From Pseudomonas hygromyciniae (GTDB lineage Bacteria > Pseudomonadota > Gammaproteobacteria > Pseudomonadales > Pseudomonadaceae): DNA of 64,000 bases. This document shows, one piece after another, positions 22,201-52,170 of the stretch (position 1 is its first letter; the number at the start of each line of letters is the position of its first letter). Below the pieces are notes generated by a model. The model was given only the letters and a program-made list of their open reading frames with translations. It did not search any database and was not told the origin of the DNA. Position numbers and translations under genes: made by a program. The stretch is from the NCBI RefSeq assembly GCF_016925675.1, contig NZ_CP070506.1, positions 680,501 through 744,500 on the forward strand, written 5' to 3'.

Positions 22201-22304
22201 TGTGGGAGCGGGCTTGCTCGCGAAAGCGGTGGATCAGTTGATGAATACTTGACTGATACACCGCCTTCGCGAGCAAGCCCGCTCCCACCAAGCCCGCTCC
22301 CACA
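22201..22304. repeat. REPIN with a duplicated end
   Basis: An 88-bp REP pair (22201-22288) starts 10 bp after the macroglobulin stop codon. Its right-hand CAAGCCCGCTCCCAC is then repeated directly at 22289-22303, a 15-bp tandem duplication of one REP end. Confidence 0.85.
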
Positions 22305-35615: not shown

Positions 35616-36503
35616 TCAAAAACTGCTCAGGGCCCGGGAGATCGCAATGAATGCCGGCCCCCCCAGCACAATCAATAAAGCGGGAAACAGGAAGACCATC
35701 ATCACCACCGACATCTTGGCCGACATCTTCGAGATGAATTCCTGCAAGCGGGTCAAACGGCGGTCGTCGAGCAGTTGCTTGAGGGCCAGCAGCGACTTCA
35801 TGGCGCCGCCGCCCTGCTGGATCAGTTGTTGAAGAATGATGCAGGTGTCGGTGAACTCGTCCACGGCCAATAGCCGGGCGGTCTTGCCCAGCTCCTCGCC
35901 CAGTTCCAGGCCCGAGTCGACCCGTGACAGGATCAACCGCAGCTCCTGGGTCAGCGCCGGCAGCAGGCGCTGCGCCTCAACGCTCAGCACGCGCAGGGAC
36001 TGTTCAACCGCCATGCCCGACTCGAACAAGATGCGCAGCAGCGGGATGAAGGTCGACACCTCGCGGGAGATTTGTTGTTGCCGGGCCTTGGCCGCACTGG
36101 CGAGGACGCGCTTGGGGATCAGGTAGCCCACGCCCAGGCCGAGCAGGGGCGCGATCCATGGAGAATCGGCGCCGGGAAAGATCAGTTCTTCGCCCACCAG
36201 GATCACGCCCGCCAGCACCAGCGGCACACCAATCTGGCAGGCGGCGAAGATCGAGCGCTGGTTGGCTTTGCGCCAGCCCACACGGTTGAGCAGGATCTGG
36301 GTTTCGTTATCCATGCTCACCGAGCGCTGGGCCAACTGGCTGCTGCCAAACTGACTGAGCAGGGTGCCGAAGCGGTCACCGCGCACCAGTTGGCCTTGCA
36401 GGCGTTGGTTGACCAGGCGATCGCGGCGGCGCTGGCTCAGCAACTGGCCGACGATCAGCGCGAGCGCAGCTAAAAACAATAAGGCACTGATCAGCAGGAC
36501 CAT
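35616..36503 (-). CDS. tadC: Tad pilus inner-membrane platform protein TadC
   Basis: TadC is one of two paralogous GspF/T2SSF platform proteins that couple the TadA ATPase to pilus assembly. The 295-residue protein has an N-terminal membrane helix, RVLASAAKARQQQISREVST, LRILFESGMAVEQSLRVLSV, a T2SSF core, and a C-terminal helix near FLFPALLIVLGGPAFIAISR. It begins 1 bp after the tadB stop. Confidence 0.94.
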   Translation of the reverse strand: MVLLISALLFLAALALIVGQLLSQRRRDRLVNQRLQGQLVRGDRFGTLLSQFGSSQLAQRSVSMDNETQILLNRVGWRKANQRSIFAACQIGVPLVLAGVILVGEELIFPGADSPWIAPLLGLGVGYLIPKRVLASAAKARQQQISREVSTFIPLLRILFESGMAVEQSLRVLSVEAQRLLPALTQELRLILSRVDSGLELGEELGKTARLLAVDEFTDTCIILQQLIQQGGGAMKSLLALKQLLDDRRLTRLQEFISKMSAKMSVVMMVFLFPALLIVLGGPAFIAISRALSSF

Positions 36504-36504
36504 C

Positions 36505-37386
36505 TCAAATACTCCGCAACATGCGCCACATCGTCAGGCAGCCCAGCACCTGCATGGTCAGCGCGGCCAGCAGCATGTAGCGGCCGCTGTCGTCGTTCCA
36601 CATGGTCAGCAGGTAGCCGGGGTTGATCAGCATGAAATAGCCCACCATCGCAATCGGCATGCCGGCCAGGACAAAGGCAGTGACGCGGGTCTCGCCGGTC
36701 ATGGCGCGCAACTGCCGGGCGCCTTGCTCCCGTTCGCGAATGACCTTGATCAGGTTCTCCAGCAAGTCACTGGCGTTGCCGCCGTAGCGGTGGTTGACCT
36801 TGAGTCCCAGGGCGAGCATGCGGAACTCGTCCTGCTCGTAGAATTCGGCAAAATCACTGGCGGCCTCGGGCAGGCTGACCCCCAATTGCACGTTGCGCTG
36901 GATACGTTCCATGGCAGGCTTCAAAGGCGCCTCGGTGCTGTCGATGGCCCCCAGCAGGGCATCGGCCAGGGTGCGCCCGGACTTCAGGCTGCGCACGGTG
37001 TGGTCGAGGACTTGCGGCAATTGTTCGACCATCCGTTTCACCCGCCGCCGATAGCGCCAGGCGATGTACAGCCGCAGGATCAGGGGCGGAAGCACTAACA
37101 TTGCGCCCAGCCCGACCCAGCTCCATACCAGAAAGCCCAGGAGCGCGCCCAACACCCAGCAGGTCACCCACAGGCCCAAGCTGTCGGTGGGCTTGCCCAG
37201 GCCCGCGCGCTGGAACATGCGCTCCAGGCCGACCCAACGCCCGCGCTCTTCGGCCAGCAGCGGCTGCCCTTCGGCAAGTCGCTCCAGGACGCGGTCGGTT
37301 TCCGCCTGGCGCAGGCCACTGAGAAACAGGTGCAGCGACACGCCAATCAGGATCACGCAACTGAACATCAGGATGGCGCCGGTCAT
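36505..37386 (-). CDS. tadB: Tad pilus inner-membrane platform protein TadB
   Basis: TadB is the second T2SSF platform protein and partner of TadC. I start at 37386 (MTGAILMFSCVILIGVSLHL), where GGAG stands about 6 bp upstream; the open frame to 37566 only overlaps tadA. The 293-residue protein has N-terminal membrane helices, the cytoplasmic T2SSF domain (RMVEQLPQVLDHTVRSLKSG, then RTLADALLGAIDSTEAPLKP) and two C-terminal helices (VTAFVLAGMPIAMVGYFMLI). It lies 10 bp downstream of tadA. Confidence 0.94.
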   Translation of the reverse strand: MTGAILMFSCVILIGVSLHLFLSGLRQAETDRVLERLAEGQPLLAEERGRWVGLERMFQRAGLGKPTDSLGLWVTCWVLGALLGFLVWSWVGLGAMLVLPPLILRLYIAWRYRRRVKRMVEQLPQVLDHTVRSLKSGRTLADALLGAIDSTEAPLKPAMERIQRNVQLGVSLPEAASDFAEFYEQDEFRMLALGLKVNHRYGGNASDLLENLIKVIREREQGARQLRAMTGETRVTAFVLAGMPIAMVGYFMLINPGYLLTMWNDDSGRYMLLAALTMQVLGCLTMWRMLRSI

Positions 37387-37396
37387 GATGACGCTC

Positions 37397-38668
37397 CTAT
37401 AACGGCATGGCGGATTCGCGGCGCAGCTTGTCACCCGCCGGGTTGACCGCCTCGCGCAGGAAACCAAAGCCAGTGCGCCGGTCATGGCGGAACAGGGTGT
37501 TGGTGACATACACGTCATCGCGCACCCCCACGACCTCCACCACTTCACTGACGCAGCGCCGGCCATCGGGCATACGGGTCAGCTGGATCACCACATCCAG
37601 GGCCGCACAGATCATCTGGCGCAGGGTTTTCTCCGCGACCACACGACCGGTCAGGCCCACCAGGGTTTCCAGACGCAATAGCGCGTCCTGGGCGTTGTTG
37701 GCGTGCACGGTACTCATGGAACCGTCGTGGCCGGTGTTCATCGCGGTCATCACATCCAGCACTTCCACACCGCGGATCTCGCCGAGGATGATGCGGTCCG
37801 GACGCATCCGCAGGGCGTTGCGGATCAGGTCGCTAGCCTTTACCTCGCCATGCCCTTCGGCATTCGGCGGGCGGGTTTCCAGGCGCACCACGTGGGGGTG
37901 GCCCAGTTGCAGTTCGGCGACGTCTTCGATGGTCACCAGGCGTTCGTGGGGGTTGATCAACTGGCTGAGGATATTGAGCAGGGTGGTCTTGCCGGTGCCG
38001 GTGCCGCCGCTGATCAGGATATTGCAGCGCTTGCCGACCGCTTCCTGGAAGAACTCGAAGATCGCCTGATCGATGGTCTGCATCGCGACCAGGTCGCTGC
38101 TCTTGAGCATGTCCTTACGAAACTTACGAATCGACAGGCACGGGCCGTCCAGGGCAATCGGCGGGATGATCGCGTTGACCCGGCTGCCATCGGGCAGCCG
38201 GGCATCGACCATCGGCGATGACTCATCCAGGCGCCGACCCAGCGGTGCGAGGATGCGTTGCATGACCCGCTCCACATGATGGGCGTCGATAAAACGCAGG
38301 TCGCTCTGGTGCAACAGGCCGTCGCGTTCGATAAATACCCGGTGCGGGCCGTTGACCAGGATCTCGGTCACCGAGGGGTCGCGCAACAGCACTTCCAGCG
38401 GGCCGAAGCCAGTCAGTTCATCGACGATTTCTTCGGCCAGGCGCTCCATTTCATAGCGGGAAATCGCCAGGTGCATGCGCGTGATGTATTCCGACACCTT
38501 GTCGATGACAAATTGCGCCAGGGATTGGCGCGAGCCTTCCAGCAGGTTTTTGCCTGACTCTTCGATGGCGTCGATGATGTAGCGGTGCAGCACCAGTTTC
38601 AGACCATCGTGTTCCACCGCACTGTTAAGCCCGCGTGCGGGTGCGCCGAAGAGCTTTTCGCTGCTCAT
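37397..38668 (-). CDS. tadA: Tad pilus assembly ATPase TadA (CpaF)
   Basis: TadA is the hexameric secretion ATPase that powers Flp pilus assembly. The 423-residue protein contains an N-terminal all-helical domain, ELTGFGPLEVLLRDPSVTEI, and a Walker A motif at 221-229 (GGTGTGKTT, K227). It also has the Asp box VTIEDVAELQLGHPHVVRLE, the Walker B region RMRPDRIILGEIRG, and the His box TGHDGSMSTVHANNAQDALL. All catalytic motifs are intact. It overlaps tadZ by 4 bp (ATGA). Confidence 0.96.
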   Translation of the reverse strand: MSSEKLFGAPARGLNSAVEHDGLKLVLHRYIIDAIEESGKNLLEGSRQSLAQFVIDKVSEYITRMHLAISRYEMERLAEEIVDELTGFGPLEVLLRDPSVTEILVNGPHRVFIERDGLLHQSDLRFIDAHHVERVMQRILAPLGRRLDESSPMVDARLPDGSRVNAIIPPIALDGPCLSIRKFRKDMLKSSDLVAMQTIDQAIFEFFQEAVGKRCNILISGGTGTGKTTLLNILSQLINPHERLVTIEDVAELQLGHPHVVRLETRPPNAEGHGEVKASDLIRNALRMRPDRIILGEIRGVEVLDVMTAMNTGHDGSMSTVHANNAQDALLRLETLVGLTGRVVAEKTLRQMICAALDVVIQLTRMPDGRRCVSEVVEVVGVRDDVYVTNTLFRHDRRTGFGFLREAVNPAGDKLRRESAMPL

Positions 38669-39858
38669 TTGATGCTCCCCCGCAGCCGTTCAAACCAGCG
38701 GGTGGAAGGTTTTGCCAAGCCTTCTGAGCGCTTGGCCAGGCGTTCGCCGAGGGTCTTGAGGTTTTGCGTCAAGGTCTCCCTGGGCGCCAGGCTGAATAAG
38801 GTTTGCCCCTGGTTCTTGGCGTTCAGGCGCACCTCGGGGCTGAACGGCAAAACCGCGATGACTTCCAGGCCGAAGCTCTTTTCCAATGCATCGGTATCCG
38901 GCGCGGCACCTTTGAGGTAGCGGTCCACGAGCAATTTGGCATGATCGAGTTTCATGCCTTTTTCCCGCCACTGGTTCAGCACGGCCAGGTTGCGCCGGCA
39001 GTCGAGGACGTTCTGGTCAGTGCACCACAAGAGCTTGTCGCAGTGGCTGACGAAGGTACGCAAGGCTTCGCTGTCGCGCTGGCCGGTGAGGTTCACCACG
39101 ATGTGCTGGAAGTGTTGGCGCAGGGCACTGAGCAGCATGTACAACTCGGCGGCGCTGGTCATTTCCAGCGGGTCGTCGCTTTCGGTGTAGGCAAGGATGC
39201 GCAGGCCACCGTCGGTGGCGGTGAACGCGCTGTTGATCAGGGTGGTGTCGAGGCGGCGCAGATGGCGCAGTGCATCGCCAAAGTTGAACGAGCTTTCCAG
39301 GCCCAGCAGCGCCAGGCTGTCGCCACGGGGCAGGCCCAGGTCCAGCAGCAAGGTTTGTTGACCGCTCTTTTGCACCACCATCGCCAAGTGGCTGGCGAGC
39401 AGGGCGCCGTCGGCATTGCCCTGGGTGCCATACAGCACGGTGAGCCCGCCCAGGTGCGCGTTGTGCGCCACCGGTGGCAGGCGCTTGCTCAGGCGCCGCA
39501 CCAGGCCGGCGACTTCGCTGGAGCGTGAGCCGTAGGCGACAAAATCCCGCGCGCCGGCACGCATTGCGTTGAGCACCAGTTGATTGTCCATGCCGTCGCC
39601 CAGAGCGACGATGGCCAGCATCGGCTTGGCTTCCAGGGCGCCCTCGATCAAGGCGCTCTGGGCCACCACATGCTCGCGGTCCAGGCCTACGAACACCAGG
39701 TTGGCGAAGGTCACGTCGACCAGGGCCAACAGTTCATCAAGGCTGCCGCCACCGGCACTGACCACTTGGCCCAGGGGCGCCAGGGCGCCTTGCAGCCATT
39801 CCAGGTCGGTGGTGTTGCGGGTGATTGCCAGGAACGTCTGGCTCAGGCTATCGCTCAT
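38665..39858 (-). CDS. tadZ: Tad pilus localisation protein TadZ (CpaE)
   Basis: TadZ/CpaE is a MinD/ParA-like protein with an N-terminal receiver-like domain, thought to position the pilus machine at the pole. The 397-residue protein has a degenerate receiver (about residues 8-125) that lacks the usual phospho-acceptor arrangement. The ParA-like domain starts near 138 (GLTVLYGTQGNADGALLASH). Where an active ATPase has GGxGKT, this sequence reads GTQGNADGA, so the Walker A lysine is missing. LLLDLGLPRGD represents the Walker A' neighbourhood. It overlaps rcpA and tadA by 4 bp each. Confidence 0.9.
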   Translation of the reverse strand: MSDSLSQTFLAITRNTTDLEWLQGALAPLGQVVSAGGGSLDELLALVDVTFANLVFVGLDREHVVAQSALIEGALEAKPMLAIVALGDGMDNQLVLNAMRAGARDFVAYGSRSSEVAGLVRRLSKRLPPVAHNAHLGGLTVLYGTQGNADGALLASHLAMVVQKSGQQTLLLDLGLPRGDSLALLGLESSFNFGDALRHLRRLDTTLINSAFTATDGGLRILAYTESDDPLEMTSAAELYMLLSALRQHFQHIVVNLTGQRDSEALRTFVSHCDKLLWCTDQNVLDCRRNLAVLNQWREKGMKLDHAKLLVDRYLKGAAPDTDALEKSFGLEVIAVLPFSPEVRLNAKNQGQTLFSLAPRETLTQNLKTLGERLAKRSEGLAKPSTRWFERLRGSIK

Positions 39859-41057
39859 TGGGAAAGTCCTGTGCGTCGGTCGAAGTTGCCGTTTTCCAGG
39901 AAGTACAGGCGATACCAGTTGGGGTCGTAGTTACGCAGTTTTTCCCCGGGCAGGGACGGCAGTTGGGCATTGGCGGCCAGGGGCTGGACCAAGTGCGGGG
40001 TGACAATCATCAGCAGCTCTTTTTCCTCGCGGCTGACGTTGCTGTCGCGGAAAAATGCGCCAAGAATCGGGATATCGCCCAGGCCTGGAAACTTGCTGAC
40101 AGTGGAGCGGTTGTTGTTACTGATCAGGCCGCTGATCACAAAACTTTCGCCATCGGCCAGGGACACCGTAGTGTCGGTGCGGCGCACGGTCAGGGCCGGC
40201 ACCTGGATGCCTTCTAGCTGCAGGGCGTTGGCGTAATCCAGCTCGCTGACTTCCGGCGCTACCTTGAGGGAAATCCGTGTGCGGTCGATCACGGTCGGGG
40301 TCAACGTCAGGCGGATACCGAACTCTTTGTACTCGATGGAAATCGTGTCGCTGCCGGCGCTGGGCACCGGGATCGGCACTTCGCCGCCGGCAAGAAAAGT
40401 CGCGCTGTGCCCGCTCATGGCGACCAGGCTTGGCCGTGCCAGGGTGTAGGCAAAGCCGCTGCGTTCCAGGGCATTGATCATCGCCGAAAAGCGCCCACCG
40501 CCAATGCCGATATTGAAACTCTCGTTATCCAGGGGCAGGCTCATCCCGGCCGTGCGCGGGCTACCGAACAGGAAGTTGCGCGTGCCGCCAAAGATCGACG
40601 TACTGGCCTCCTTGAGCTTGGTGCGGCTGACTTCCACAAAGCGGATATCGGTCTGCACCTGGCTCGGCAGGGAAGGGTCGTCGGAGGGCGACAGGGCCAG
40701 GCTGGTCAGGGTCGAGGTGGCCTTGCCCTTGACGAACACCATGCTCTGGCGTGGCTCGCTGGAACAGCGGGTCCAGACCATCAGGCTGGTGGCGCCAGAG
40801 GCGACGCCGGTGAGCAGGAAAGCGCGATCACCGTTGAGGTGTACGTCGGCGATTTTCGGGTCGCCGATGGCCAGGCGAGTAATAGGCACTGGCGACTGTA
40901 GGGTTTGTTGCAGGCCTTCACCGACCTCGACCACGGCCGGCAAGGCGCCCAGGTTGCTGCAGCTGTCGGCGGCTGCGAACGCCAGGCCGACAGGCAGGCT
41001 GGACAGCATCAGGGCCCAGGCCATTTGAGTGAACGCTGGTGCGAAACGTTGGCGCAT
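39855..41057 (-). CDS. rcpA: Tad pilus outer-membrane secretin RcpA (CpaC)
   Basis: RcpA forms the outer-membrane ring through which the Flp pilus passes. The 400-residue protein has a signal peptide (MALMLSSLPVGLAFA region, ending near residue 29). A pilus-formation N-terminal domain follows (VVEVGEGLQQTLQSPVPITR, then LAIGDPKIADVHLNGDRAFL). The secretin domain contains FSAMINALERSGFAYTLARP, LVAMSGHSATFLAGGEVPIP and LADGESFVISGLISNNNRST, closing with ELLMIVTPHLVQPL. It lies 19 bp after rcpC. Confidence 0.95.
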   Translation of the reverse strand: MRQRFAPAFTQMAWALMLSSLPVGLAFAAADSCSNLGALPAVVEVGEGLQQTLQSPVPITRLAIGDPKIADVHLNGDRAFLLTGVASGATSLMVWTRCSSEPRQSMVFVKGKATSTLTSLALSPSDDPSLPSQVQTDIRFVEVSRTKLKEASTSIFGGTRNFLFGSPRTAGMSLPLDNESFNIGIGGGRFSAMINALERSGFAYTLARPSLVAMSGHSATFLAGGEVPIPVPSAGSDTISIEYKEFGIRLTLTPTVIDRTRISLKVAPEVSELDYANALQLEGIQVPALTVRRTDTTVSLADGESFVISGLISNNNRSTVSKFPGLGDIPILGAFFRDSNVSREEKELLMIVTPHLVQPLAANAQLPSLPGEKLRNYDPNWYRLYFLENGNFDRRTGLSQ

Positions 41058-41076: not shown

Positions 41077-42024
41077 TCAGGGATTTTGTTGGGTCGCTTG
41101 GTTACCACGTATGACCTCGATGCCGGAGCGCCTCGGTTCGTTGGCCCCCCCGCTTTGTGCGATTCTTTTCGGCGTCCCGAGCATGGCCAGTTGAGTGAAC
41201 TGGTACAGCTCGCGATTAGCGCTTTGCAGCTTGGCGGGTGCCTCGCTATTCCCGGCCCAGTACTGGCTCAACAACTGCTCATCGGCACTGCGTACGGCCA
41301 AGCGCAAGGTGCCGGCGCTGGTTGCCAGCATCAAGCGGCTCATCAACGGTTGCGGCACCGCCAACACCACGGTTCGCGGAGGGCTTGCCTGGCGTTGTGC
41401 CTGGCGGGCTTTTTCTTCATCGGTGGCGGGCGGCGCGACGGCGGGCTTACCATCGTTGGTCGGTCCGAGGTTATCGCCCACGCTGAGCAGGCGCAGGGCC
41501 GGCACGATGACCTGGGCGGTGGGTTCCGGGTTGGTGCCTTCCGGGCGCAGGAACAGCAGCACATCCACAAAATCCCCGGGGCTCAACTGGCCTGCGGCAC
41601 CGATGACTTCATCGACGGCCACCGCCAGGGCGCGTTCGTCAGGGCGGATCATGCGGGCCAGGGGGCCACCGGCATTGAAGCTCGAATCATCCAGCCAGGT
41701 ACCGGCAGGCAGGGCTCTCAAGGGCGTGCGGCCAATGGCCTGGTCGAGGCTGGTCAGGCTGCCGGCCGGTGCAGTGCGCAGTCTTTCCAGGGTCAGGTCG
41801 GCGGCGGTGAGGGCAATATACGGCGGCACATCATGGGCCAGGACCACCACCGACTGGCGGGTCTGGTCTTCGACGGCGGCGACGGTTTTCTCCACGGAAA
41901 CGCCAGATGGCGACGGTTCGGCAACTGGCTCAGGCGGACGACTCAATATCAGTCCCCAATAGCCCGCGAATAGCGCACCGATTAACAACAACCCGGCCAG
42001 GATCATGCTGACACGACTGTTCAT
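41077..42024 (-). CDS. rcpC: Tad pilus protein RcpC (CpaB)
   Basis: RcpC/CpaB is a periplasmic component anchored in the inner membrane that supports secretin assembly. The 315-residue protein has one N-terminal helix (residues 7-27, MILAGLLLIGALFAGYWGLI). A SAF domain follows (VVVLAHDVPPYIALTAADLT). The RcpC C-terminal region includes AVDEVIGAAGQLSPGDFVDV and LLFLRPEG. It is the first gene of the eight-gene operon rcpC-rcpA-tadZ-tadA-tadB-tadC-tadD-DUF3613. Confidence 0.94.
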   Translation of the reverse strand: MNSRVSMILAGLLLIGALFAGYWGLILSRPPEPVAEPSPSGVSVEKTVAAVEDQTRQSVVVLAHDVPPYIALTAADLTLERLRTAPAGSLTSLDQAIGRTPLRALPAGTWLDDSSFNAGGPLARMIRPDERALAVAVDEVIGAAGQLSPGDFVDVLLFLRPEGTNPEPTAQVIVPALRLLSVGDNLGPTNDGKPAVAPPATDEEKARQAQRQASPPRTVVLAVPQPLMSRLMLATSAGTLRLAVRSADEQLLSQYWAGNSEAPAKLQSANRELYQFTQLAMLGTPKRIAQSGGANEPRRSGIEVIRGNQATQQNP

Positions 42025-42351
42025 GAAGGCTCTCCCTATCCTGTTGCACTACGTGCCCGTTTTTCCCAACGAGTTTCTTTCGCAACCAGGCAGCTATGAA
42101 CATCTAACGATTTCGCTATTTGACGGTAGCCGAGCTAGGACAAAATGCCATTAGCCATCACGATTTATTTTGGAACTATCGACATGCGTCCTGAAAGCAC
42201 GGGTTTATGGCGCCAGTCTTGCGACTACTACTTTGTGATTAATCCGTTCTTACAGTTGTTGAGGTTGATTTTGTTGACAATGCTCTAGTGGCACGCAGCA
42301 ATCACCGTGCAGCACCGCGATCTGCGCAAGCAAGCGCAAAGGAGAAGTCAT
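42025..42351. other. Divergent rcpC/flp intergenic region
   Basis: This 327-bp gap must contain the promoters for the rcpC operon (leftwards) and flp (rightwards). It is AT-richer than flanking genes. A TTGACA hexamer occurs at 42274-42279, but no good -10 hexamer follows at 16-18 bp, which suggests activator dependence; PprB is the natural candidate. No REP element or terminator is present. AAAGGAG at 42338-42344 is the flp ribosome site. Confidence 0.5.
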
Positions 42352-42540
42352 ATGTTCCTTACCTTCATGATGAAGCTCTACCTCCAACTCCAACTGTTGT
42401 TTCATCGCAAAGAGGGCGCCACGGCAATCGAGTACGTGATCCTCGTGGCGGTTATTGCGTTAGTCGTATTGGCAGCGGGGAAATTGCTTGGGCCTCAGAT
42501 CGCGGCCATGTTCGCTAAAGTCGGGGCCGCCTTGACCTGA
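42352..42540 (+). CDS. flp: Flp-type major pilin
   Basis: This is the structural subunit of the Tad pilus. The 62-residue prepilin starts at 42352 after AAAGGAG. It has a leader of about 22 residues ending KEG. The processed pilin begins ATAIEYVILVAVIALVVLAA, with Glu5-Tyr6, the hallmark of Flp pilins, followed by GKLLGPQIAAMFAKVGAALT. FppA should cut between G and A. A second flp-like gene lies 0.5 kb downstream. Confidence 0.94.
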   Translation: MFLTFMMKLYLQLQLLFHRKEGATAIEYVILVAVIALVVLAAGKLLGPQIAAMFAKVGAALT

Positions 42541-42598
42541 TTGGCAGCAATAGTGCGATGAGCAAGCCCATCAGTGATTGTCTTGGAAGGTATTGCTC

Positions 42599-43003
42599 AT
42601 GAACGCTGTTGTTGCGAGCCGCCAGCAGATCCTGTTGGTGGATGACGAAGAAGATGCCCTCGTTGAACTGGCCGAATCGCTGGGAAACGAGGGCTTTGTT
42701 TGTTTCTGTGCCAGCTCCGTCACGTATGCATTGCAGGAGCTGACACTGCATCCTGATATCGCGCTGGTCATTACCGACTTGCGCATGCCTGAGGAAAGCG
42801 GCATTTCCTTGATCAAGCGCCTGCGTGAGCACACCTCACGCGAGCATCTGCCCGTGATTGTCATGTCCGGCCATGCCGAAATGGATGACGTCAGTGACAT
42901 GTTGCGGTTGCAGGTCCTGGACCTGTTTCGCAAACCCATCTACCTGGTTCGTTTGATCGATACCCTCAACAGTCTGTTTCCCCTGGCGCGGGGGAAGCCG
43001 TGA
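42599..43003 (+). CDS. Stand-alone receiver-domain protein between two flp genes
   Basis: This is a single-domain response regulator with no output domain. The start at 42599 has GGAAGG 8 bp upstream; 134 residues. All key receiver residues are present: acidic D15/D16, phospho-acceptor D60 (LVITDLRMPEESG), S90 (VIVMSGHAE) and K112 (LFRKPIYL). It resembles the PprB receiver in layout (xxVEELxExL..GFxC..S..A pattern and DLxMPxxxGIxL), so it may compete for PprA phosphate or act in a phosphorelay; that is inference. It lies 58 bp after flp and 32 bp before the second flp gene. Confidence 0.88.
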   Translation: MNAVVASRQQILLVDDEEDALVELAESLGNEGFVCFCASSVTYALQELTLHPDIALVITDLRMPEESGISLIKRLREHTSREHLPVIVMSGHAEMDDVSDMLRLQVLDLFRKPIYLVRLIDTLNSLFPLARGKP

Positions 43004-43035
43004 CTCATCCATAGCGCCGGTTCAGGAGAGTTCCT

Positions 43036-43224
43036 ATGTTGCTTGCCTCGCTGATGCGGATGTGCGCTTGGTCGATGCTGCTTTTGCGCCGCAGGGACGG
43101 TGCGACGGCCATCGAGTATGTGATTTTGATTGTGGTGATTGCGTTGGTAGTGCTGGCCGCCGGGAAGTTGCTGGGACCGCAGATTGCGACGTTCTTTGGC
43201 AAGGTGGGGGATGCGCTGACTTGA
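43036..43224 (+). CDS. Second Flp-type pilin
   Basis: This is a paralogue of the first flp. The 62-residue prepilin has CAGGAGAG just upstream. The leader ends RRDG, and the mature start ATAIEYVILIVVIALVVLAA is nearly identical to Flp, followed by GKLLGPQIATFFGKVGDALT. The leaders differ greatly (MLLASLMRMCAWSMLLLRRR here), while the mature pilins differ at only a few positions. It could be an alternative or minor subunit of the same pilus. Confidence 0.92.
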   Translation: MLLASLMRMCAWSMLLLRRRDGATAIEYVILIVVIALVVLAAGKLLGPQIATFFGKVGDALT

Positions 43225-45085: not shown

Positions 45086-45163
45086 AGGACACTCCATGGT
45101 CAAAACTGCAGCGGCATTTCGCAGGTTCCCGCCGGGTTCTAGGGCACGGTTCGGGAGTTCCAA

Positions 45164-45198
45164 TAAAAAAGACGAGAGACCCATTGGAATCTCTCGTC
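45164..45198 (-). terminator. Intrinsic terminator after the repeat lipoprotein gene
   Basis: On the minus strand GACGAGAGA (45198-45190) pairs with TCTCTCGTC (45179-45171) and is followed by TTTTTTATTG. It lies between the lipoprotein stop (45254) and the TpsB start (45085), so the transporter is read only by read-through or from its own promoter. Confidence 0.85.
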
Positions 45199-45253
45199 TC
45201 AACCAAGCGTAGGCGCTGTAGGGGAGGCCGTCTAATGGCCAGGTGCAATTCTC

Positions 45254-47053
45254 CTATTTACCGGTCAGGCCCTTGAGCAGGCCGCCTACGCCGGTGTTTG
45301 CAGTGGCCGATCCCGACGCCGTGGCGTTGGCGTTGATGTTCAGGCCGCCGAGCAGGCCACCACCGCTACCGCTGGTGCCGCCGGTCACCAGACCACCGAC
45401 CGAGGAAACCGCGCCACCGACGGCGGTGACGGTTTGGCCCAAGGTGTTGGTGACTGGGTTGGCATTGGCTGCGGTGAGGTTGCCGCCGAGGCCGCCGACT
45501 GCGCTGCCCACTTGAGTCACCAGGCCGTTGACCGGTGCACCGATACCGGTCGTGGTGCCGATGTTTTGGGTCAGGCTGCTGACACCCGAAGTCACAGGGT
45601 TCAGCGCCGCACCCACATTGCTCGCAAGACCTGCCGCCGGTGCGGTTGCCGCTGTGTTGGCGACACCGTTGCCACCGATCAATGTGCCGAGCGAGGCTAC
45701 TGTGTTGCCCAGTGCGCCACCTGTCGCACCCCCCGCACTAACGGTGCCGTTGGTGTTGCCGGCATTCAGGCCGTTACCGACGTTGGCCACCAGGCCGCCC
45801 ACCAGTTCAGGCAGACCGGATGCCGGGGCACTGCCACTGCCGGTACCGGCAGACGGTGCCACATAACCACCCGCAGTGCCTGCTACCGCACCGACACCGT
45901 TGAGCACGCTGCCCACGGCACCGGTCACTGGGTTGCCAGCGCCACCTGCGCCTGCCACCTGAGTGCCGAGGCCGGTGACGGTCGAGCCGACTTTATCCAG
46001 CAGGCCATTGACCGGGTTGCCCAGGCCGGTGGCTTTACCCAGGTTGCCGGTGGTGTTTTCCACCAGCGAGACCACAGGCACCAGTACTTTGCCGCCCAGG
46101 GTGTTGGTGACCGATCCCAGTGGGCCGGTGGTGCTGGCGGTACTCAAGGTATCGCCGAGCATGGTGACCGCCTGGCCAACTTTATCCACCAGGCCACCTG
46201 CTGCTCCACCGACGCCGCCGGTAAGGCCGCCGACTACCGGGATACCGCCCAGGGTGGTCGAGAGTGTTTTGCCGGTGTTCGAAACACCCGTGCCCAGGTC
46301 GGCGACACCGTTGGCCACGCCGGCCACGGTGATGCCCAGGGAGTTGCTGTTGGTGCCCAGGGAGCCCAGGCCAGTGCCGACCCCAGTGGCGACGCTGCCC
46401 ACGGCGGTGCCTGCGCTGGTCACCAGGCCGCCTGCCGCAGTGCCAACTACCGGAACGCCGCTGACGGTTGTGCCGATGCCACCGATCGCTGTACCGACGT
46501 TACCGAGTGTGCCGCCCAGATTGGTCGCAATCTGGCCTGTGACCAATGGGCTGGTAGTCGAGCCGGTGCCGCCACCTGTGCCGCCGCCAGTACCACCGCC
46601 GGTGCCGCCACCTGTGCCGCCGCCAGTACCACCGCCGGTGCCGCCACCTGTGCCGCCGCCAGTACCACCGCCGGTGCCGCCACCTGTGCCGCCGCCAGTA
46701 CCACCGCCGGTGCCGCCACCTGTGCCGCCGCCAGTACCACCGCCGGTGCCGCCACCTGTGCCACCGCCAGTACCACCGCCGGTTCCGCCACCCGTGCCGC
46801 CGCCAGTACCACCGCCGGTTCCGCCACCTGTGCCGCCGCCAGTACCACCGCCGGTCCCGCCACCTGTGCCACCGCCAGTACCGCCACCGTCACCACCACC
46901 CGTACCACCACCGGTACCGGCGCCAGCATCCGGGGACGAGGATGCAACGCTGCTCTTATGACCGCCACCACCACTGCTGCAGCCTCCCAGGCTCATCGCC
47001 AAGATAAGGGCCAATGCAGTACTTGCTTTCCACAACACGACTTGAGTTTTCAT
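45254..47053 (-). CDS. Gly/Thr-repeat surface lipoprotein (annotated elsewhere as collagen-like)
   Basis: This is probably a surface-exposed, adhesin-like lipoprotein; the function is unproven. The 599-residue protein has a lipoprotein signal with lipobox SLGGC (C25). A Ser/Gly/Asp linker is followed by a perfect period-4 repeat of Gly-Gly-Gly-Thr (about residues 50-165). A long Gly/Val/Thr/Asn-rich region (165-599) is built of imperfect units such as NPVNGLLDKVGSTVTGLGTQ and APVNGLVTQVGSAVGGLGGN. It contains no cysteine after the lipobox and almost no aromatic residues. The repeat is GGGT, not the Gly-X-Y of collagen. Its nearest partner is the TpsB-like gene downstream. Confidence 0.82.
   Translation of the reverse strand: MKTQVVLWKASTALALILAMSLGGCSSGGGGHKSSVASSSPDAGAGTGGGTGGGDGGGTGGGTGGGTGGGTGGGTGGGTGGGTGGGTGGGTGGGTGGGTGGGTGGGTGGGTGGGTGGGTGGGTGGGTGGGTGGGTGGGTGGGTGGGTGGGTGGGTGGGTGGGTGSTTSPLVTGQIATNLGGTLGNVGTAIGGIGTTVSGVPVVGTAAGGLVTSAGTAVGSVATGVGTGLGSLGTNSNSLGITVAGVANGVADLGTGVSNTGKTLSTTLGGIPVVGGLTGGVGGAAGGLVDKVGQAVTMLGDTLSTASTTGPLGSVTNTLGGKVLVPVVSLVENTTGNLGKATGLGNPVNGLLDKVGSTVTGLGTQVAGAGGAGNPVTGAVGSVLNGVGAVAGTAGGYVAPSAGTGSGSAPASGLPELVGGLVANVGNGLNAGNTNGTVSAGGATGGALGNTVASLGTLIGGNGVANTAATAPAAGLASNVGAALNPVTSGVSSLTQNIGTTTGIGAPVNGLVTQVGSAVGGLGGNLTAANANPVTNTLGQTVTAVGGAVSSVGGLVTGGTSGSGGGLLGGLNINANATASGSATANTGVGGLLKGLTGK
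46565..46888. repeat. 36-bp minisatellite, nine copies, in frame
   Basis: On the plus strand a 36-bp unit, beginning GGTGCCGCCACCTGTGCCGC, is repeated head to tail nine times. Copies 1-5 are identical and copies 6-9 differ by one to a few bases. Each unit encodes (GGGT)3 on the minus strand, so gain or loss of a copy changes the protein by 12 residues without breaking the frame. Confidence 0.95.
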
Positions 47054-52050: not shown

Positions 52051-52170
52051 TGTGGGAGCGGGCTTGTGTGGGAGCTGGCTTGCCTGCGATAGCATCACCT
52101 CGGTGCAACTGATGTACCGAGGTGCCTGCATCGCAGGCAAGCCAGCTCCTACATAAGCCCTGCTCCCACA
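52051..52170. repeat. REPIN nested in an older REP pair
   Basis: The outer arms TGTGGGAGCGGGCTTG (52051) and AAGCCCTGCTCCCACA (ending 52170) enclose a complete inner REPIN (52067-52153) with different arms (TGTGGGAGCTGGCTTGCCTG and its complement). The inner element also has its own loop dyad, CACCTCGGT/ACCGAGGTG. It lies between the convergent RIO kinase and cueR genes. Confidence 0.85.

Follow-up and report, generated by a model that had tools for sequence, protein, structure and literature searches.

The window analysed here, a 64-kb stretch of Pseudomonas hygromyciniae DNA, contains a lipoprotein gene, an adjacent gene for an outer-membrane transporter homolog and a Flp/Tad pilus locus (Table 1). 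The lipoprotein gene is read from the minus strand, with its start at 47053 and its stop codon at 45254-45256; the initial annotation had its coordinates exactly and gave no strand. The lipobox LGG↓C at residue 25 predicts, from the motif only, that the product is a lipoprotein, and an MKTQ start followed by an L[GA]GC lipobox is common to the 30 loci listed. The repeat stalk of the protein had been placed directly after the lipoprotein anchor. This is not so: a conserved segment, CSSGGGGHKSSVASSSPDAG, lies in between, and a similar segment with few substitutions is present in 30/30 of these loci.

Table 1. Features of the lipoprotein, transporter and pilus genes in the 64-kb window (positions within the window).
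Feature	Position	Strand	Basis
Collagen_mid lipoprotein gene, 599 aa	45254..47053	-	Open frame; PF15984, E 1.4e-41
Predicted signal peptide and lipobox, residues 1-25 (...MSLGG↓C25)	46979..47053	-	Sequence
In-frame minisatellite, 36 bp x 9.1, coding for (GGGT)n stalk	46562..46889	-	TRF, copy comparison
Full Collagen_mid domain, residues 204-398	45860..46444	-	Pfam
Second, partial Collagen_mid copy, about residues 461-558	45380..45673	-	PF15984 profile positions 102-198 at G000:C1:725880-726173
Terminator-like hairpin with T run, between lipoprotein and TpsB genes	45169..45200	-	
TpsB/FhaC-type outer-membrane transporter homolog, 560 aa	43403..45085	-	POTRA_2 and ShlB above cut-off; Omp85-type predicted fold
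Flp pilin	43036..43224	+	PF04964, E 1.5e-9
Receiver-domain response regulator	42578..43003	+	PF00072, E 6.6e-20
Flp pilin	42307..42540	+	PF04964, E 2.2e-9
RcpC/CpaB	41077..42024	-	PF16976
RcpA-type secretin	39855..41057	-	PF00263
TadZ	38665..39858	-	PF16968
TadA-type ATPase	37397..38668	-	PF00437
Two T2SSF proteins, TadB and TadC by order	35616..37566	-	PF00482 in both; first start is that of the longest frame

The stalk is encoded by the dominant tandem array of the window, which TRF scored at 600 (96% matches), while the six remaining rows scored only 51-60. As had been noticed from the letters alone, copies 1-5 of the 36-bp unit are identical (46562-46741, plus strand); in the same order, copies 6-9 carry 1, 2, 1 and 3 differences from this sequence. 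The 12-bp GGGT words, taken in the order of translation, close with five identical ABC triplets, which puts the latest expansion at the C-terminal side of the stalk. A degenerate pattern, GGGTGGGT (codons GGY, GGY, GGY and ACN, twice), occurs at 20 places in the 6.29-Mb genome, 20/20 of them within the array, and its reversed control has no match in the genome. At 22274-22303 and 52051-52082 of the window TRF also reported short tandem copies of CAAGCCCGCTCCCAC and its complement, which we take to resemble REP-type intergenic repeats.

The distal region matches a named family, Pfam Collagen_mid (PF15984), to which the lipoprotein belongs with 143 bits against a cut-off of 31.1. The distal 435 residues had been described as imperfect Gly/Val-rich repeats. 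They are Gly/Val-rich and consist of one full Collagen_mid domain and a partial second copy, whose residue numbers were converted from the genome position of the match. Hydrophobic residues of the region show a periodicity of 3.53 that exceeds 95% of shuffles, and AlphaFold2 (AF2) predicts helices almost throughout, with pLDDT of about 70-85 for region residues 11-100 and a mean of 55.9. Since the region is predicted to be helical, "Bacterial collagen, middle region" is to be read as a family name and not as a description of the fold.

It is highly improbable that the stalk forms the triple helix of collagen type implied by the database label of relatives. Glycine occupies every third residue for at most three triplets running in the stalk, and likewise in the distal part, and the collagen-like family PF01391 is not matched by the lipoprotein in Pfam searches up to E = 1. 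The earlier statement that the stalk is not Gly-X-Y is thus correct, and the "collagen-like" label is wrong for this stalk, but it does fit at least one relative. Besides the Pfam name, the triple helix has in its favour this relative, a Collagen_mid gene (L128 in genome G648, 1285-2361) in which a true Gly-X-Y stalk stands upstream of Collagen_mid (PF01391 plus PF15984), and the TSG repeats of other relatives, which follow a Gly-X-Y pattern.

The adjacent gene, which has an alternative in-frame ATG at 45097 that would give 564 aa, encodes a homolog of two-partner secretion transporters as judged from its ShlB-type POTRA and ShlB/FhaC barrel matches. Its AF2 model has an Omp85-type fold with a mean confidence of 54.1, and BamA chains tie with FhaC and CdiB as structural matches. 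The likeness to FhaC and CdiB, in domains and predicted fold, ends at the partner, which here is a lipoprotein without a TPS domain: PF05860 was not found in it in Pfam searches up to E = 1. To our knowledge, known TpsB clients have a TPS domain. The genome holds three ORFs with such a domain elsewhere, two of which adjoin a ShlB gene while one lies ~7 kb away; the ShlB gene beside the lipoprotein is the fourth in the genome and the one without a TPS-domain partner. One of the TPS-domain matches (L183, G000:C1:182962-183705) belongs to an ORF of ~3010 aa that immediately follows a ShlB gene and probably encodes a large exoprotein of the two-partner type. A works-like comparison is offered by the Slam (type XI) systems, in which a dedicated outer-membrane protein is also paired with a surface lipoprotein (PMC9090332). 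The transporter here, however, is of the Omp85/TpsB type; no Slam-type family was matched in Pfam up to E = 1, where only POTRA_2, ShlB and a weak POTRA appeared.

A terminator-like hairpin separates the two genes. Of 37 named relatives, 36 have a similar hairpin no more than 170 nt from the stop codon, at +51 to +55 in 34 of these 36. Its stem is mostly conserved and its loop variable; in L164 and L168 the stem differs in sequence yet still pairs. The conservation of such a structure makes simple co-transcription of the two genes doubtful.

Pfam matches to Flp pilin, RcpC, secretin, TadZ, TadA and T2SSF proteins identify the neighbouring genes as a Flp/Tad pilus locus, of the same kind as the Pseudomonas clusters surveyed in PMC7716237; the words collagen, two-partner, hemolysin and lipoprotein are absent from the main text of that survey. 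The two Flp pilin genes (42307-43224) flank a receiver-only response regulator and are on the strand opposite to the other Tad genes.

The pairing of the lipoprotein with the TpsB homolog and their linkage to Tad genes are conserved. Among 398 genomes of the genus, searched with thresholds of E <= 1e-5 for Collagen_mid and E <= 1e-60 for the TpsB homolog and for TadZ, these were detected in 143, 177 and 225 genomes, respectively. Every Collagen_mid genome (143/143) has the TpsB homolog and 140/143 have TadZ, counts in which species are not independent samples. Collagen_mid is lacking in 34 of the genomes with the TpsB homolog, of which 17 have TadZ; TadZ itself is present without Collagen_mid in 85 genomes and without TpsB in 68. 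Among the 139 genomes with listed positions, the TpsB gene is on the same strand as the domain match and starts 479-1180 nt past it in 137; in the remaining two the matches are on different contigs. The flanks of 37 of 38 named Pseudomonas loci contain TpsB, a Flp motif, the response regulator, RcpC, RcpA, TadZ and TadA, the 38th locus being a 5-kb contig.

A phylum-wide draw of 398 genomes contained Collagen_mid in 13, ten of them outside the genus. In all ten a Gly-rich PF15984 lipoprotein gene is the next frame of more than 200 aa upstream of a TpsB homolog, with a gap of 85-272 nt in nine and of 762 nt in L180. RcpC, RcpA, TadZ and TadA matches are nearby in six of the ten. Another three, all from one other genus of the same family, have the lipoprotein-TpsB pair with no Tad match in 19 kb, and the tenth (G763) has no more than one Flp-motif match and a weak match to secretin. 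Second Collagen_mid copies were seen in L098, L099, L100 and L181, with no TpsB match in the fetched stretch; the other copy in each case adjoins TpsB.

The PF15984 lipoproteins of the Burkholderia cepacia complex, the Bcc-CLPs, have been described as putative adhesins whose repeats differ from one ortholog to another (PMC10224339). They share with the Pseudomonas protein the lipoprotein anchor, N-terminal low-complexity tandem repeats and Collagen_mid, and differ from it in having mostly GTS rather than GGGT repeats; the second, partial Collagen_mid copy is a feature of the Pseudomonas protein. Two of them, BCAL1523 and BCAL1524, are listed beside flp pilus genes and the gene for an outer-membrane protein, BCAL1522, which is tabled as "heme utilization-related" (PMC10224339); the main text of that paper mentions neither two-partner nor FhaC. 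The position of BCAL1522 in the gene order, together with its length (1686 nt; 561 aa in L174), leads us to infer that it is a TpsB homolog. BCAL1520, BCAL1523 and BCAL1524 were reported to be induced together with flp genes when B. cenocepacia is in contact with membrane vesicles (PMC7970998). BCAL1524 itself was seen in outer-membrane vesicles, a location that does not prove exposure on the outside, and its deletion modestly reduced auto-aggregation (residual OD 17.7% vs 11.9%), an effect that was complemented; antibiotic susceptibility was given as the same in the deletion mutant (PMC10303873). The Burkholderia Bucl proteins resemble the present ones in that repeat length varies between strains and one or two triplets dominate, but have Gly-X-Y triplets and other flanking domains (PMC4565658); the term PF15984 is absent from the main text of that paper. 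Collagen_mid is thus a known but little-studied family. We recognised no report of its pairing with TpsB in the open-access literature, a search beyond which most subscription papers lie. As far as these searches show, the family and its adhesion role are partly published and the TpsB partner is unreported.

Taken as a whole, we lean slightly towards the reading that the locus encodes a Tad-associated adhesin lipoprotein, displayed at the surface with the help of TpsB and carrying an interchangeable stalk. The product would be an outer-membrane lipoprotein of the Collagen_mid family built of an anchor, a Gly/Thr low-complexity spacer and a predicted alpha-helical Gly/Val-rich distal region, and would serve in adhesion or auto-aggregation together with the adjoining Flp/Tad pilus. 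The adjacent TpsB (FhaC-type Omp85) protein would most likely bring the lipoprotein as a whole, or only the distal part of it, to the cell surface, and in-frame turnover of the minisatellite may set the stand-off of the distal region from the membrane. Surface display, export by TpsB and stalk length as a functional variable are the parts of this reading that we infer. Because a family member, BCAL1524, is reported to promote auto-aggregation (PMC10303873), the adhesive role proposed in the initial annotation is plausible. The lipoprotein gene is nearly always beside the putative exporter gene and usually beside pilus genes, which suggests that the three form one sticky-surface module. The annotation was also right about in-frame variation and a stalk that is not Gly-X-Y, but missed the Pfam family, the TpsB neighbour and the Tad locus.

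The strongest points against this reading are the missing TPS domain and the Collagen_mid paralogs that lie away from TpsB, although these could use the same transporter in trans. The hairpin between the genes, the 34 genomes with TpsB only, the three with the pair and no nearby Tad genes, the low mean AF2 confidence (55.9 and 54.1) and the tie of BamA with FhaC and CdiB also count against it. The TpsB homolog could instead serve the Tad pilus or another client, the lipoprotein being a co-regulated neighbour that is displayed otherwise or not at all. This alternative, which we consider unlikely, draws on the same lack of a TPS domain and on the 34/398 genomes that have TpsB without Collagen_mid, 17 of them with TadZ, as well as on the position of TpsB beside rcpC and Flp-motif frames in five of seven fetched TpsB-only loci (L091, L094-L097). 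It does not sit well with the fact that every genome of the genus sample with the lipoprotein also has the TpsB homolog, nor with the 68 genomes that have TadZ and no TpsB and the three in which the pair stands apart from Tad genes; TpsB is tied closer to the lipoprotein than to Tad. In the seven TpsB-only loci (L091-L097), from genomes without Collagen_mid, the TpsB homologs are 55-60% identical and the genes upstream are different: in L092, the one tested against Pfam, these are PbpC and an alpha-2-macroglobulin gene, and the other six loci look similar by sequence.

To follow the stalk, 106 loci were reduced to 81 parsed orthologs, 64 of them distinct and 62 usable for stalk length; with one genome per species in the collections, all comparisons are between species. 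The stalk is hypervariable and its reading frame constrained. It measures 37-228 aa (median 109.5, n=62), and differs in length in 25 of 27 ortholog pairs, not independent of one another, in which the adjacent 600 nt of coding DNA are at least 90% identical; the adjacent 600 nt contain gaps in 0/27 of these pairs. A TRF array was detected in 60 of the 64 distinct orthologs, and 60/60 periods are multiples of 3. The in-frame change of length anticipated from the 36-bp unit is therefore borne out between species, and the minisatellite first noticed in the window is confirmed as a real, hypervariable one. The sequence of the unit changes as well. Within the genus the stalks consist of GGGT, GGGTGGT, GGGD mixtures, NPT/DPT or DPGT units, and a crude stalk class changes 14 times by parsimony on the 62-row tree; in other genera the same position is taken by TSG, PT, GGGGT or GGT repeats and, in L128, by the true collagen stretch.

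Such turnover is also what would be seen if the lipoprotein faced the periplasm and the glycine stalk were a mere flexible tether, its length neutral and drifting by slippage. Every stalk type seen is simple low-complexity sequence, unit types change often, and the length has no fixed value (37-228 aa). We nevertheless regard a neutral, periplasm-facing tether as improbable: the frame is kept by every detected period, a vesicle-located family member promotes auto-aggregation (PMC10303873), and some spacer is retained in 62/62 orthologs despite the turnover, as seen with a parser unable to detect spacers of less than 15 residues. The last argument is compatible with a neutral length provided that a spacer is required.

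If the preferred reading of a TpsB-displayed adhesin is extended beyond this locus, two-partner secretion might have a branch whose passenger is a non-TPS lipoprotein, in which Collagen_mid lipoproteins, brought to the surface by an Omp85/TpsB protein, act as adhesins alongside Tad pili and bear an exchangeable spacer with a length tuned by an in-frame minisatellite, with several such lipoproteins per genome in some lineages. We put this forward tentatively, as a possibility on the doubtful side. It is known for only a handful of lipoproteins how they come to be exposed on the outside of the outer membrane (PMC9090332), and the pairing of a TpsB-type transporter with a non-TPS lipoprotein, which is both widespread and strict, can be tested directly by single-gene deletion. 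The stalks, for their part, form a natural length series across dozens of species in which the adjacent domain is nearly constant, suited to relating spacer length to adhesion. In another lineage, two strains of Burkholderia gladioli are reported to be separated by 264 SNPs, 19 indels and 5 structural variants, and the genes given there as carrying a structural variant include one with both PF01391 and PF15984 (PMC12724388), a hint of variation within a species.
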